Positions 2,009 through 5,675 of a stretch of DNA of 26,923 nucleotides are shown in pieces. Below the pieces are notes generated by a model. The model had not been told where the DNA came from. It saw nothing but the letters and a program-made list of their open reading frames with translations, and searched no databases. Source of the stretch: a virus. The stretch is from positions 1 through 26,923 of the IMG/VR virus record IMGVR_UViG_3300032050_000679; one strand, written 5' to 3'. Both the position numbers and the translations under genes were made by a program. How positions within the stretch are numbered: the first letter of the stretch is position 1; every line of letters starts with the position of its first letter.

Positions 2009-2151
2009 CGCAAGACGACGCTACACCGGCGAGCAACGGTACACCTGGCGTGTGTAGTAAACCGGTATGCGGCGAATCGGAACGCCAATCACCGCAAGCC
2101 ATGCGGTGTTCTGCCAGCGAACGCGAAAGATCAGGAGCATCGCATGAGTGA
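2005..2151 (+). CDS. small ORF of unknown function, coupled to the initiator gene
   Basis: A possible 48-residue product starting at an ATG that overlaps the preceding TGA (ATGA), so translation could be coupled. It is polar, rich in Ser, Glu and Arg, and has no recognisable domain. Its opening MTQDDATPAS resembles the short leader peptides encoded by the downstream hairpin repeats (for example MTHDNEEPSA), which suggests it may be a remnant of the same kind of unit. Its last codons run into repeat R1 and overlap the next start at 2144. It may not be a functional protein. Confidence 0.35.
   Translation: MTQDDATPASNGTPGVCSKPVCGESERQSPQAMRCSASERERSGASHE
2090..2108. other. short hairpin upstream of the cassette array
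   Basis: CACCGCA (2090-2096) and TGCGGTG (2102-2108) form a perfect 7-bp stem with a 5-nt loop. GGAAC at 2079-2083 and GTTCT at 2108-2112 flank it, recalling the AGAAC/GTTCT ends of R2-R4. The 9-nt spacers and bulged base of R1-R5 are missing. It could be a degenerate first member of that family or an unrelated hairpin. Confidence 0.3.
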
Positions 2152-2203
2152 TTCAGACAGCACGCAGGACGACGCAGCGATGTCTCCTGCATCGACTGGT
2201 TCT
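2119..2203 (+). repeat. attC-like structured repeat R1
   Basis: Ends are AAC (2120-2122) and GTT (2199-2201). Nine-nt spacers lead to a long stem: CAGGAGCATCGC (2132-2143) pairs with GCGATG-T-CTCCTG (2177-2189), leaving T2183 unpaired. The 33-nt loop starts with the ATG of the next gene (2144), and its AGGAG ribosome site (2133-2137) lies inside the left arm, so folding would hide it. The stem sequence differs completely from R2-R5, while ends, spacers and bulge position are the same. Confidence 0.7.
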
Positions 2204-2509
2204 ACCGCCCACACGCCGGGGCCGTGGACAGTCGCAACTATCGACGATTCATTCGCCGTAGCGACATCTCCCGCCTCTGTCAACGAGAAGATGCACTGTG
2301 TTTGTGTGACCGCAGGGAACAGGTGTTCGCTAACGCTGGCAAACGCTCGCCTCATCGCCGCCGCGCCCGAGTTGCTCGCGGCCCTCAAGCGACAGCAGGC
2401 CAACATTCGGCGATGGCTGGAGACTGGAGTTCCGGCCAATGCGGAGGAGAGTCGGTCGATTTCTGAGCAGATTGACGCGGCGATCAAAGTGGCAGAGGGC
2501 GAAAGGTAG
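2144..2509 (+). CDS. conserved phage hypothetical protein (HTPGPW / NARLIAAAPELL family)
   Basis: A 121-residue protein. The motifs HTPGPWTV (residues about 25-32) and ANARLIAAAPELLAALKR (about 67-84) are typical of a widespread family of small phage and prophage proteins of unknown function. The stretch between them resembles a beta-rich domain and the C-terminus is helical. The start codon lies in the loop of R1, and its ribosome site AGGAG (2133-2137) lies in the R1 stem, so translation could depend on RNA folding. The first ~20 residues are encoded by R1 rather than by the family core. The stop TAG forms part of the AGAAC end of R2, as expected for a mobile gene cassette. Confidence 0.75.
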   Translation: MSDSDSTQDDAAMSPASTGSTAHTPGPWTVATIDDSFAVATSPASVNEKMHCVCVTAGNRCSLTLANARLIAAAPELLAALKRQQANIRRWLETGVPANAEESRSISEQIDAAIKVAEGER

Positions 2510-2593
2510 AACACGCGAGATCAACAGCCGCGAACGAAGGAGGCGGCAACCATGAGCGACGAGAATGAGCGGTCTGTTGCATCGGCTGGTTCT
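2508..2593 (+). repeat. attC-like structured repeat R2
   Basis: AGAAC (2508-2512) pairs with GTTCT (2589-2593). Nine-nt spacers flank the stem CAACAGCCGC (2522-2531) / GCGG-T-CTGTTG (2569-2579), with T2573 bulged. The 37-nt loop holds the AAGGAGG ribosome site and the ATG at 2552. It differs from R3 at only four of 86 positions by my count. Confidence 0.75.
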
Positions 2594-2839
2594 AAGCCTT
2601 GGAAGGGTTCGCAATCTGAGGGGCTGCACGACCTTGGCATGATCGTTGGGCTGGTGTGTAGTGCTACAGAAAGTCTTGCGCTTGCGCACCACATCGCGGA
2701 GGTTGGCGGGCTACTCACAGAGGACAAACTTCAGAGGCTCAAAGAGGCCGAAGTCAAAGCCAGCAGCCTTGGAATAGCCAGTGTGTCGATGGCTCGCGTG
2801 GCAGAACTGCACGAAAAGTCTGTTGGGCGGGTGGATTAG
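2552..2839 (+). CDS. hypothetical protein in the second cassette
   Basis: A 95-residue, largely helical protein with no family I recognise. Residues 1-15 (MSDENERSVASAGSK) come from the R2 repeat. The body after that (about 20-95) contains hydrophobic helix-like segments (DLGMIVGLVCSATESLALAHHIAEVGG) and a charged helix (EDKLQRLKEAEVKASSLG). An AAGGAGG ribosome site lies in the R2 loop before the ATG. The stop codon TAG is the first part of the AGAAC end of R3. Size, position between two nearly identical repeats and lower GC favour an accessory gene acquired as a unit. Confidence 0.6.
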   Translation: MSDENERSVASAGSKPWKGSQSEGLHDLGMIVGLVCSATESLALAHHIAEVGGLLTEDKLQRLKEAEVKASSLGIASVSMARVAELHEKSVGRVD

Positions 2840-2923
2840 AACACGCGAGATCAACAGCCGCGAACGAAGGAGGCGGCGAACATGAACGACGAGAATGAGC
2901 GGTCTGTTGGATCGGCTGGTTCT
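2838..2923 (+). repeat. attC-like structured repeat R3
   Basis: AGAAC (2838-2842) and GTTCT (2919-2923) bracket nine-nt spacers and the stem CAACAGCCGC (2852-2861) / GCGG-T-CTGTTG (2899-2909), T2903 bulged. It is nearly identical to R2, including the AAGGAGG ribosome site in the loop and the ATG at 2882. Two such close copies flanking the 95-residue gene could themselves recombine. Confidence 0.75.
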
Positions 2924-3178
2924 GTGGAGCCGGTTGCTTGGGCGGTGGTTTCTGACAGCAGGGAGGAGATCGACTGCGAGTTCGTCTACCCAGACAAGGC
3001 CACTGCCGGCGACGTTGCGCTGGACATCAACGGCGGCTTAGTCCCGCTTTACCGCCAGCCGCAGGCCACGCTCACCGACGCGGAGCGGGAGGCGATCCAC
3101 TGGGTCATCGGTGACGTAGCCGACATCACCTGGCCTGTGGAGGAGACCCTTCGCGGGCTGCTGGAGCGGCTGAAGTGA
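2882..3178 (+). CDS. small phage/planctomycete-type hypothetical protein (EPVAW...VPLYR)
   Basis: A 98-residue protein. After an R3-encoded leader (residues 1-14), the core begins EPVAWAVVSDSREE and reaches VPLYRQPQATLTDAEREAIHW, a pattern of small accessory proteins in phages and bacterial genomes. The C-terminal helix ends ETLRGLLERLK. Function is unknown. The start ATG and an AAGGAGG ribosome site are in the R3 loop. The last codons are closely repeated, out of context, at about 4753-4785, indicating a second, decayed copy of a related gene. The stop lies three bases before repeat R4. Confidence 0.65.
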   Translation: MNDENERSVGSAGSVEPVAWAVVSDSREEIDCEFVYPDKATAGDVALDINGGLVPLYRQPQATLTDAEREAIHWVIGDVADITWPVEETLRGLLERLK

Positions 3179-3181
3179 CAC

Positions 3182-3266
3182 AGAACGCGCAGGATCAGCG
3201 GCGGCGACGAGGAGACGAACCATGACGCATGACAACGAGGAGCCGTCCGCTGCATCCGCTGGTTCT
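3182..3266 (+). repeat. attC-like structured repeat R4
   Basis: AGAAC (3182-3186) and GTTCT (3262-3266), nine-nt spacers, and the stem CAGCGGCGGC (3196-3205) / GCCG-T-CCGCTG (3242-3252) with T3246 bulged. Both arms changed together relative to R2/R3. The 36-nt loop holds the methyltransferase ATG (3222) and a GGAG ribosome site. Confidence 0.75.
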
Positions 3267-4301
3267 AAACCGTTGACCTTCGGCTCGCTCTTCGCCGGGA
3301 TCGGCGGCTTCGACCTAGGCCTCGAGCGGGCCGGGATGGTGTGCAAATGGCAAGTGGAGATTGATGACTACGCGACGAAGGTGCTGGAAAAGCACTGGCC
3401 TTCCGTGCGTCGATGGAGCGACGTTCGGACGTTTCCACCGGAGGGTGATTGGAATGTCGATGTCATCTGCGGCGGGTTCCCATGCCAAGACATTAGCGTT
3501 GCCGGAAAAGGCGCAGGGCTTGCCGGAGCAAGGTCCGGTCTTTGGTACGAGTTTGCTCGGATCATTCGCACAATACGGCCCCGATGGGTGGTCGTTGAAA
3601 ACGTGCCAGCTCTCACTGCTAGAGGACTCGGAACCGTTCTCGGAGACTTGGCCGAAATCGGGTTTGATGCGGAATGGCACTGCATACCGGCTTGTGCCGT
3701 TGGTGCGCCGCACCGACGAGAACGGATCTGGATTGTGGCGAACGCCATCGGCGCAGGAGCCAGGTATCTCGCCGGAGCGGCTCACGGCTGCGGAGGGCGA
3801 AACTCTGGGCGGCGACTGCCGCCACTACGACAAGCACACGGGCCGGCTGGCACAAATCGGGCTAACTCAGCAAGTGCAACTGCGGACGCAGTGGCCGACG
3901 CCATCGGCCAGCGGGATGCCATGCGAAGGGACGGTTCGCCTTGCGAGAAAGGCGTGGCTCGACGGGGCCGCAACGCTAGAGGAAGCAAGCGCGATTGCGG
4001 GTCGGGATGTTCGGGCGAAGCAGGGCAAGGTGGCTGCGATGTGGCCGACGCCAACAGCTTGCCAGGGACACAACAACAGCGCGATGAACAGTGGCAGCGG
4101 AGGACGGGAGTTGCTACAGAAGAAGGCGGCTTCGCCGGAGGAAGCGAGCCAGATGGCTGGTGGGAAACTGAACCCGACGTGGGTCGAGTGGCTCATGGGG
4201 TTCCCGCTCGGGTGGACCGACTGCGGTGCCTCGGCAACGCGGTCGTCCCGCAAGTCGTCGAAGTGATCGGGCGGGCGATTGTGGCGAGGGAGAGTGTTTA
4301 G
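3222..4301 (+). CDS. DNA (cytosine-5-)-methyltransferase
   Basis: A 359-residue C5 DNA methyltransferase, which transfers a methyl group from S-adenosylmethionine to cytosine in a specific site. Motif I is LFAGIGGFDLG (residues 23-33). Motif IV is GGFPCQDIS with catalytic Cys88. Motif VI is ENVPAL with Glu126. Motif VIII is HRRERIWIVAN (164-174). A long variable stretch should hold target recognition, and the C-terminal motif X region is LGNAVVPQ near 337-344. All key residues are present, so it is probably active, likely protecting phage DNA from restriction. No cognate nuclease is visible. The N-terminal 15 residues come from R4, and the stop forms part of the R5 end. A second reading frame overlaps most of it. 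Specificity cannot be read. Confidence 0.93.
   Translation: MTHDNEEPSAASAGSKPLTFGSLFAGIGGFDLGLERAGMVCKWQVEIDDYATKVLEKHWPSVRRWSDVRTFPPEGDWNVDVICGGFPCQDISVAGKGAGLAGARSGLWYEFARIIRTIRPRWVVVENVPALTARGLGTVLGDLAEIGFDAEWHCIPACAVGAPHRRERIWIVANAIGAGARYLAGAAHGCGGRNSGRRLPPLRQAHGPAGTNRANSASATADAVADAIGQRDAMRRDGSPCEKGVARRGRNARGSKRDCGSGCSGEAGQGGCDVADANSLPGTQQQRDEQWQRRTGVATEEGGFAGGSEPDGWWETEPDVGRVAHGVPARVDRLRCLGNAVVPQVVEVIGRAIVARESV
3454..4266 (+). CDS. overlapping gene in another frame of the methyltransferase
   Basis: A 270-residue reading frame lies wholly inside the methyltransferase gene in another frame, yet reads like a protein family I recognise from phages. Conserved-looking blocks are GSFAQYGPDGWSLKTCQLSL, EPFSETWPKSGLMRNGTAYR, SGLWRTPSA, two WPTPT/WPTPS motifs, and LNPTWVEWLMGFPLGWTDC near the C-terminus. 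The last block shares DNA with the methyltransferase motif IX-X region. A start at 3454 is favoured by GGAGGG at 3440-3445, eight bases upstream; in-frame starts exist further upstream. Its function is unknown to me. The alternative is that the blocks are forced by conservation of the methyltransferase frame. Confidence 0.55.
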   Translation: MSMSSAAGSHAKTLALPEKAQGLPEQGPVFGTSLLGSFAQYGPDGWSLKTCQLSLLEDSEPFSETWPKSGLMRNGTAYRLVPLVRRTDENGSGLWRTPSAQEPGISPERLTAAEGETLGGDCRHYDKHTGRLAQIGLTQQVQLRTQWPTPSASGMPCEGTVRLARKAWLDGAATLEEASAIAGRDVRAKQGKVAAMWPTPTACQGHNNSAMNSGSGGRELLQKKAASPEEASQMAGGKLNPTWVEWLMGFPLGWTDCGASATRSSRKSSK

Positions 4302-4353
4302 AACACGCAGGATCAGCGGCGGCTCCGCCGTCCGCTGCATCCGCTGGTTATGC
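4300..4353 (+). repeat. attC-like structured repeat R5 (short-loop form)
   Basis: AAC (4302-4304) and GTT (4347-4349), nine-nt spacers, and the same stem as R4, CAGCGGCGGC (4314-4323) / GCCG-T-CCGCTG (4327-4337), with T4331 bulged. The loop is only TCC, so there is no start codon inside. The right end is GTTATGC, a sequence seen at right ends of genuine attC sites. The methyltransferase stop TAG overlaps its left end. Confidence 0.75.
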
Positions 4354-4383
4354 TAGAGCGACAAACAGAAAGCATGGTGAAGC

Positions 4384-4650
4384 ATGGAAGAGAAGCCAAA
4401 GTACGACACGTTCGCACACCTGCCGGAAATCTCCGGTGCCTGCCTACGGGTGATGGTCTTGGACGATCCAAAATCTGGCATCGACACGCTCCAGCCCTAC
4501 GTTCGCTTCCGCGTTCAGGAAGCGGCCGACATGCTTGACGAGTGTGCGAAGCGGCTGGCGGCTTTGGAGAAGTACGTTGAGTTGGTGCAGGCCGCTGCGG
4601 GCAAAGCGTTCGCAGACCTCGCGGAAGAGTTTGCCGAGTCGCGTGAATGA
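4384..4650 (+). CDS. hypothetical helical protein in the last cassette
   Basis: An 88-residue acidic protein with no family I recognise. The second half is strongly helical and could form a coiled coil (RVQEAADMLDECAKRLAALEKYVELVQAA, about 44-72). I chose the ATG at 4384. An ATG at 4350 inside R5 is in another frame, and the ribosome site here is weak (GGTGAAG). The gene is bracketed by CTGGTTATGC (4344-4353) and its exact inverse GCATAACCAG (4659-4668), supporting a gene-plus-site unit following R5. Confidence 0.55.
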   Translation: MEEKPKYDTFAHLPEISGACLRVMVLDDPKSGIDTLQPYVRFRVQEAADMLDECAKRLAALEKYVELVQAAAGKAFADLAEEFAESRE

Positions 4651-4658
4651 AGGCAGGA

Positions 4659-4668
4659 GCATAACCAG
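4659..4668. repeat. inverted copy of the R5 right end
   Basis: GCATAACCAG is the exact reverse complement of CTGGTTATGC at the right end of R5 (4344-4353). It follows the stop of the 88-residue gene by eight bases, where the left end of a sixth attC-like site would be expected. The rest of such a site (stem, right GTT end) is not recognisable here. Confidence 0.5.
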
Positions 4669-4740
4669 TGTTTCTCTGGAACTTGATAACACGCCGTCTC
4701 GCCGTCAAATCGTCGCCGCGCGGCCGCGAAACGAGGAGTC

Positions 4741-5225: not shown

Positions 5226-5675
5226 ATGGAAGCCCACGAGATCACGTTCGAAGTCCCCGGCCAGCCGGTCCCACAGCCCCGCCACCGCGTCAGTACCCGC
5301 GGCGGCTTCGCACGGGCTTACATTCCCAAGGGCCACGCGATCCACGCCTACCGCGAGGCGGTCCAACTGCTGGCGACGACCAACGGATGGCGGGAAGGAC
5401 CGGCGGCGGGCCCCGTGGCGGTCGAAATCGACTGTTACCTCGAGCGGCCTGCCAGCCACGTCACGAAGGCCGGCGAGGTCCGCTCGTCGGCCCCGACCTA
5501 CCCGGGCCGATCGGATGTCGACAACCTGGCGAAGGCCGTCCTCGACTCGATCACCGACGCGGGGACGCTCTGGGCCGACGACGACCAGGTCGTCGACCTT
5601 CACGTCCGCAAGCACTACGCCAGGCCCCAGGCGGGCGGCCGGACGATCGTCACCGTCCGGAGGCTGCCGCCGTGA
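5226..5675 (+). CDS. rusA: RusA-family Holliday junction resolvase
   Basis: A 149-residue protein matching the RusA family in length and motifs: PGQPVPQPRHR (residues 11-21) near the start, then SDVDNLAKAVLDSIT (96-110) and LWADDDQVV (115-123). Asp97, Asp99 and the acidic cluster 118-120 are candidates for the metal-binding residues that cleave four-way junctions in this family. In phages, RusA proteins resolve recombination or replication intermediates before packaging. The ATG is preceded only by a modest purine stretch. The stop overlaps the GTG start of the next gene (GTGA), so the two are probably translationally coupled. Confidence 0.9.
   Translation: MEAHEITFEVPGQPVPQPRHRVSTRGGFARAYIPKGHAIHAYREAVQLLATTNGWREGPAAGPVAVEIDCYLERPASHVTKAGEVRSSAPTYPGRSDVDNLAKAVLDSITDAGTLWADDDQVVDLHVRKHYARPQAGGRTIVTVRRLPP

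Follow-up and report, generated by a model that had tools for sequence, protein, structure and literature searches.

Introduction

Clusters of attC sites lacking an integron integrase (CALINs) are already known from phages: Qi et al. 2023 (PMC9892861) reported 17 of them, some with methyltransferases, as well as phage attC that recombine with IntI1 at attI1. The DNA analyzed here is the whole 26,923-base IMG/VR virus record IMGVR_UViG_3300032050_000679, called the window below, in which an initial annotation had noted an array of five attC-like hairpins with one gene per interval. Like the phage CALINs of Qi et al., the locus is an attC array without intI in a phage genome and holds a DNA methyltransferase cassette. 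Because phage CALINs with methyltransferase cassettes have been published, the suggestion that such an array would be unusual has to be dropped. We conclude that positions 2120 to 4662 are very probably five integron-type gene cassettes in an HK97-type tailed phage, ending at an attI-like sequence at 4663 and without intI in the record.

Other parts of integrons that bear on this locus have been described as well. Published attC show very limited sequence conservation, and the repeats DR1 and DR2 of attI1 have been characterized (PMC8946536). Models exist for planctomycete attC (PMC8352920), and the effects on translation of ORF-11 in attI1 and of translation-hindering attC stem-loops have been summarized (PMC4670013).

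Results

The five hairpins lie on the + strand, with AAC triplets starting at 2120, 2510, 2840, 3184 and 4302 and GTT triplets starting at 2199, 2589, 2919, 3262 and 4347. Their plan reads AAC, 6 unpaired bases, 3 paired (GAT), 6 paired, further stem, loop, stem, an extra T, 6 paired, an extra C or G, 3 paired (ATC), 5 unpaired and GTT. The AAC/GTT plan, nine-base spacers, unpaired T and single gene per interval of the initial annotation were all confirmed in the sequence. In the window sites the left nine bases consist of the 6 unpaired and 3 paired (GAT) bases and the right nine of 1 extra base (C), 3 paired (ATC) and 5 unpaired; with this extra base and the unpaired T, the right arm carries two extra bases. 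Sites 1 to 4 (2120-2201, 2510-2591, 2840-2921 and 3184-3264) are long and have the stems CAGGAG/CTCCTG, CAACAG/CTGTTG, CAACAG/CTGTTG and CAGCGG/CCGCTG, respectively, while site 5 (4302-4349) is a short form of 48 nt. The folding-energy z value of site 5 was -3.5, and those of the four long sites lay between -0.9 and -1.8; folding energy by itself is too weak to reveal long-loop sites. The sites have the features expected of the attC of a CALIN: an imperfect palindrome, a central spacer that stays unpaired, extrahelical bases and a terminal structure that varies. We therefore take all five hairpins as real attC-type sites for integron recombination. The cassette lengths first given, 390, 330, 343 and 1085 bp, are correct from GTT to GTT; from AAC to AAC they become 390, 330, 344 and 1118 bp, and a fifth unit had been missed, which spans 4302-4662 and whose closing sequence GCATAAC is complementary to GTTATGC.

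A structure-only scan gave 61 sites in the first 76 sequences, against 2 and 6 in two shuffles, and 341 sites in 148 loci when extended to all fetched IMG/VR loci, against 2 in shuffles. No same-plan site was found on the opposite strand in the array loci. Both sides change in 12 of the 18 pairs in an alignment of 42 sites. This set had been partly selected by pairing, and a second covariation test was therefore made with a degenerate DNA pattern that leaves three stem positions free per side and does not demand pairing; it returned at least 120 IMG/VR contigs. Its 138 unique matches show covariation at all three varying stem pairs (p = 5e-11, 9e-37 and 3e-34). Stem covariation, which the initial annotation had proposed to look for in a larger alignment, is unambiguous.

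R1, a covariance model built from 42 phage sites with no short site among them, gave 78 matches in 732 kb. The window sites scored 76.2 (site 1, used in building R1), 84.5, 83.4, 86.9 and, for short site 5, 57.5 bits (E = 2e-14). In a reciprocal test, R1 was run on IMG/VR contigs that had been identified independently by an integron-integrase motif, and it matched attC in 13 of them, with E down to 1.5e-8; four intI genes from matched contigs scored 410-486 bits with TIGR02249. A dedicated attC model, another of the checks initially suggested, thus speaks for the assignment. Neither R1 nor the structure scanner matched phage TJE1, which shows that R1 does not recognize attC in general. These results bear on the idea that the hairpins are regulatory or terminator elements, or hairpin-transposon ends, and not recombination sites at all. 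The hairpins are intergenic and contain ribosome-binding sites, as such elements might, but R1 finds attC beside genuine intI genes on the expected strand, an Rfam scan of the window gave no match, and the per-cassette complementarity and exact exchange presented below are unexpected of terminators. The idea is already contradicted, and we give it next to no chance.

In an integron cassette, the bases after the head GTT are complementary to the bases before the tail AAC, and the two pair in the circular form. Cognate heads and tails in the window match over 5, 4, 5 and 6 bases beyond the triplet, and the fifth cassette leads from site 5 (GTTATGC, 4347-4353) to GCATAAC at 4659-4665. Over 171 unique cassettes, the summed match was 769, against a permutation mean of 294 and a maximum of 357 in 5000 permutations. 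Agreement at the first five positions beyond GTT was 0.94, 0.96, 0.88, 0.78 and 0.70 and lay near background further out; from this fading, an R box of about 8 bases follows.

The + strand of the array is the attC bottom strand, by three independent lines of evidence. The class 1 aadB attC served as a control: its bottom strand follows the plan, both extra bases included (G-T wobble allowed in pairing), whereas its top strand does not. When near-identical cassettes were compared in different contexts (27 pairs), the left site tended to accompany the gene and the right site did not. Ordinary integrons have their attC bottom strands on the intI strand, 5' of intI, and the R1 matches near intI had exactly this placement in 11 of the 13 contigs. 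The cassette logic of the initial annotation was therefore right and its orientation reversed: a cassette is a site with its downstream gene, cutting takes place at the left AAC, and the direction of the genes is toward attI. Cassette genes in the fetched loci point toward attI in 223 cases and away from it in 35, and for this reason a cassette promoter (Pc) at attI could not provide sense transcription of them. The attC of two IMG/VR contigs with intI (L231 and L250) were seen on the opposite strand, 3' of the integrase, which inverts the usual geometry.

Genes have been gained or lost among phages with breakpoints at the conserved triplet (loci L012/L135/L152, L206/L208 and L202/L206). Such breakpoints had been anticipated at G/TT, but the relevant cut is in the left AAC, its complement. 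L012, L135 and L152 share a near-identical cassette, c1, in which the identity is bounded by AAC on either side, and L135 has an extra cassette between c1 and attI that is not in L152. Between identical left flanks and the same attI, L206 and L208 carry different cassettes, and other phage groups with the same attI region likewise differ in their cassettes. The array could instead be a relic of a single capture from a host integron, its cassettes no longer mobile and rearranged only by homologous recombination between repeats; the lack of intI in the records would agree with this, and the attC repeats do share sequence able to support homologous exchange. A relic is nevertheless quite unlikely, given that near-identical cassettes have wholly different flanks with boundaries at one triplet, that different cassettes occupy the same attI-like site, and that stem covariation and head/tail complementarity are maintained, which points to continuing site-specific recombination.

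The 287 proteins encoded by the fetched cassettes fall into 177 clusters, some of which may have been merged by shared leaders. Recognizable products are C5, N6/N4, Dam and MT-A70 methyltransferases, Mom and HNH proteins, and most are of unknown function. The replication protein family of the window occurs in 10 of 56 pattern-found records, and array carriers reach 204 kb; from these mixed replication families and sizes it follows that different phages share the cassette pool. A 38.6 kb record (G064, locus L114) holds 16 attC sites, in which long and roughly 41-nt short forms are mixed.

The array ends on the + strand in an attI-like sequence (4663-4720), AACCAGTGTTTCTCTGGAACTTGATAACACG..., the GCATAAC that closes cassette 5 reaching into it. 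The sequence following the last window cassette at 4663 reads AACCAGTGTTTCTCTGGAACTTGATAAC..., and similar sequences terminate arrays in many phages. A profile search found this end in 79 loci, 71 of which have recognized attC, with different cassettes abutting it. ATAAC-type repeats average 1.49 per attI-like end, against 0.12 in shuffles. A rusA relative was found in 39 of the 79 loci, mostly 120-1200 bp downstream and on the same strand; this vicinity may be a chance effect of the replication module, or the enzyme may help to resolve recombination intermediates. The initial annotation had the number of sites right but had overlooked both the attI-like end and the Shine-Dalgarno (SD) sequences and start codons inside the hairpins.

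Each gene of window cassettes 1-4 starts within its hairpin. The start codon is preceded by AGGAG in the left arm of site 1 (2133-2137, ATG at 2144), by AAGGAGG in sites 2 (2537-2543, ATG at 2552) and 3 (2867-2873, ATG at 2882) and by GAGGAG in site 4 (3209-3214, ATG at 3222). Site 5 has no internal start codon, and short sites of its kind mostly lack one. An ATG open to the site end, in one common frame, was found in 192 of 244 unique long sites, compared with 76 (maximum 95) in loop shuffles, and in 74 of 95 when similar sites were removed. SD-like sequences are present in 182 of the 192 open-ATG sites (loop shuffles 22, maximum 34). Stops occur in the leader frame in 28 of the 244 sites, against 194 and 190 in the other two frames. 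Most long attC carry an SD-like sequence and an ATG, and the bias in frame is evidence, at the level of sequence, that they are coding.

An integron integrase elsewhere in the phage, which the initial annotation had proposed to look for, was not found: no match exceeded the TIGR02249 cut-off in 98 records, including that of the window. The description as an integron-type cassette array without integrase in view is supported, and with no TIGR02249 match in cis the array is not classed as a complete integron. Many array phages do have tyrosine recombinases of one related family (~30-60% identity), and the main rival to an integron integrase is that these enzymes, as a separate family evolved for attC-like hairpins, move the cassettes; in L069 the end of the gene even adjoins the first attC. 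However, their presence does not track the arrays (among the first 30 records, 12 of the 18 with an array and 8 of the 12 without have one), the four largest carriers, of 146-204 kb, gave no detectable member, and their position relative to the array varies. They score as ordinary phage integrases with no TIGR02249 match above cut-off, and their identity with IntI was rejected on these grounds. We regard this rival as improbable. The absence of intI and the failure of the phage recombinases to track the arrays favor host IntI acting in trans, which is the most likely source of the recombinase.

The tyrosine recombinases of L213-L215, L219-L224, L076, L081 and L082 form one family, often with FHxIRK in the HxxR motif region. 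The gene end adjoins the first attC of the array in L069 (record G023) and L076 and is kilobases away in other phages. The L069 protein had no PDB sequence match.

Several points weigh against the integron reading. The R boxes of the window sites (GTTCTAC, GTTCTAA, GTTCTGT, GTTCTAA and GTTATGC) depart from the seven-base consensus GTTRRRY: four of the five misfit it, as had been noted at the outset, and the last agrees at 6 of 7 positions. A few consecutive site pairs, e.g., in L070 and L075, show no head/tail complementarity, which implies degenerate or missed sites. No recombinase acting on these sites was identified in the records searched, and two scans of 84,980 bacterial and archaeal genomes for a host with matching attC or intI, both with narrow queries, were empty. 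Missing intI is itself not proof, as IMG/VR records are often fragments. With regard to the R boxes, GTTRRRY is a consensus and not a defining invariant, and the head-to-tail complementarity of each cassette matters more. The sites may also resemble attC of Rhodopirellula-type Planctomycetota, a likeness that was not used as evidence.

All window features that follow are on the + strand. The open reading frames of cassettes 1 to 3, each starting within its attC, encode 121 aa (2144-2509; phrog_1273, unknown function), 95 aa (2552-2839; no family) and 98 aa (2882-3178; no family). Cassette 4 encodes a C5-cytosine DNA methyltransferase of 359 aa (3222-4301; PF00145, E = 9e-46; phrog_363, E = 6e-84) whose start lies within attC 4. 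Cassette 5 has an open reading frame of 88 aa and unknown function (4384-4650), and the cassette occurs in L069 with 86% DNA identity and other flanks. A weak Pesticin-domain match of this product (E = 0.013) did not reach the cut-off and was treated as chance.

The window contains terminase, portal, S78 protease and HK97-type capsid genes, and the record is an HK97-type tailed phage genome; by these genes the CALIN is placed inside a genuine phage genome. No close isolate phage was found in searches for relatives of this virus. The array lies between a phage replication initiation gene (1139-2008; phrog_2509, E = 1e-18; 68 related loci), itself preceded by a gene for a ParB-like/DUF6551 protein (350-1138; phrog_1033, E = 8e-21; PF20188, E = 2e-20), and a RusA Holliday junction resolvase gene (5226-5675; PF05866, E = 2e-23). 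The junction from the replication gene to the first site (2009-2119) ends with CCAGCG before AAC, complementary to the cassette head GTTCGCTGG of other phages; its terminal CCAGCGAAC is the complement of a head present in L048 and L072. This junction is possibly the tail of a cassette whose site was lost.

Discussion

The mechanism that we favor for the five cassettes runs as follows. The + strand, as the attC bottom strand, would fold into the hairpin that integron integrases recombine, with IntI presumably supplied in trans by a host integron. Recombination in the AAC of attC and attI-like sites, at AA/C, which is complementary to the classical G/TT, would account for cassette gain and loss. 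Being co-directional with the flanking phage genes, toward attI, the cassette genes are presumably transcribed together with them. A captured gene may then be translated as a fusion to an attC-encoded leader, e.g., MSDENERSVASAGS, from the ribosome-binding site and ATG in the hairpin. The cassettes would supply accessory and counter-defense functions such as DNA modification.

More broadly, a phage-specialized integron platform seems a reasonably good explanation of the loci as a whole, although we hold it with less confidence than the cassette assignment itself. Many different phages would draw on a common cassette pool and retain a conserved attI-like landing site, frequently next to rusA; attC would double as translation-start modules, the recombinase would act in trans, and expression would come from the phage operon without Pc. 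This suggests that integron-type recombination is a standing gene-exchange system for phages and not an occasional accident, and that methyltransferases, Mom-like and HNH proteins and many unknown small genes circulate among different phages. It would also offer a natural case of attC encoding the start of their own gene, which bears on cassette expression without Pc, and it makes the use of host integron integrases by phages a directly testable question.

Compared with the 17 scattered CALINs of Qi et al. 2023, the arrays described here belong to a related site class in at least 120 IMG/VR contigs with a common attI-like end; their genes are reversed relative to attC, the attC hold SD sequences and ATG, and cassettes are common to different phages. 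We found no description in the open PMC literature of a conserved phage attI-like platform, of systematically reversed genes or of attC with a ribosome-binding site and start codon, and these three features appear to be new. The class 1 aadB attC (59-base element) has the identical bottom-strand plan, with the same spacers, 3-bp and 6-bp stems and two extrahelical bases. The phage sites differ from it in an outer extra base C rather than G, in an R box that is mostly GTTCT and not GTTRRRY, and in a 3' half that has an open reading frame and start codon. Like attI1 of class 1 integrons, the attI-like end would be where cassettes enter the array, at a GTT/AAC crossover beside short repeats of the GTTA type; unlike attI1, it has no adjacent intI, its sequence is unrelated, and its repeats are candidate binding sites that stand out by their enrichment. 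Finally, ORF-11 in attI1 and the attC stem-loops share with the phage sites the principle that recombination sites influence the translation of cassette genes, whereas in the phages the attC itself appears, from its reading frame, to hold the start codon of the cassette gene and to encode its N-terminus.

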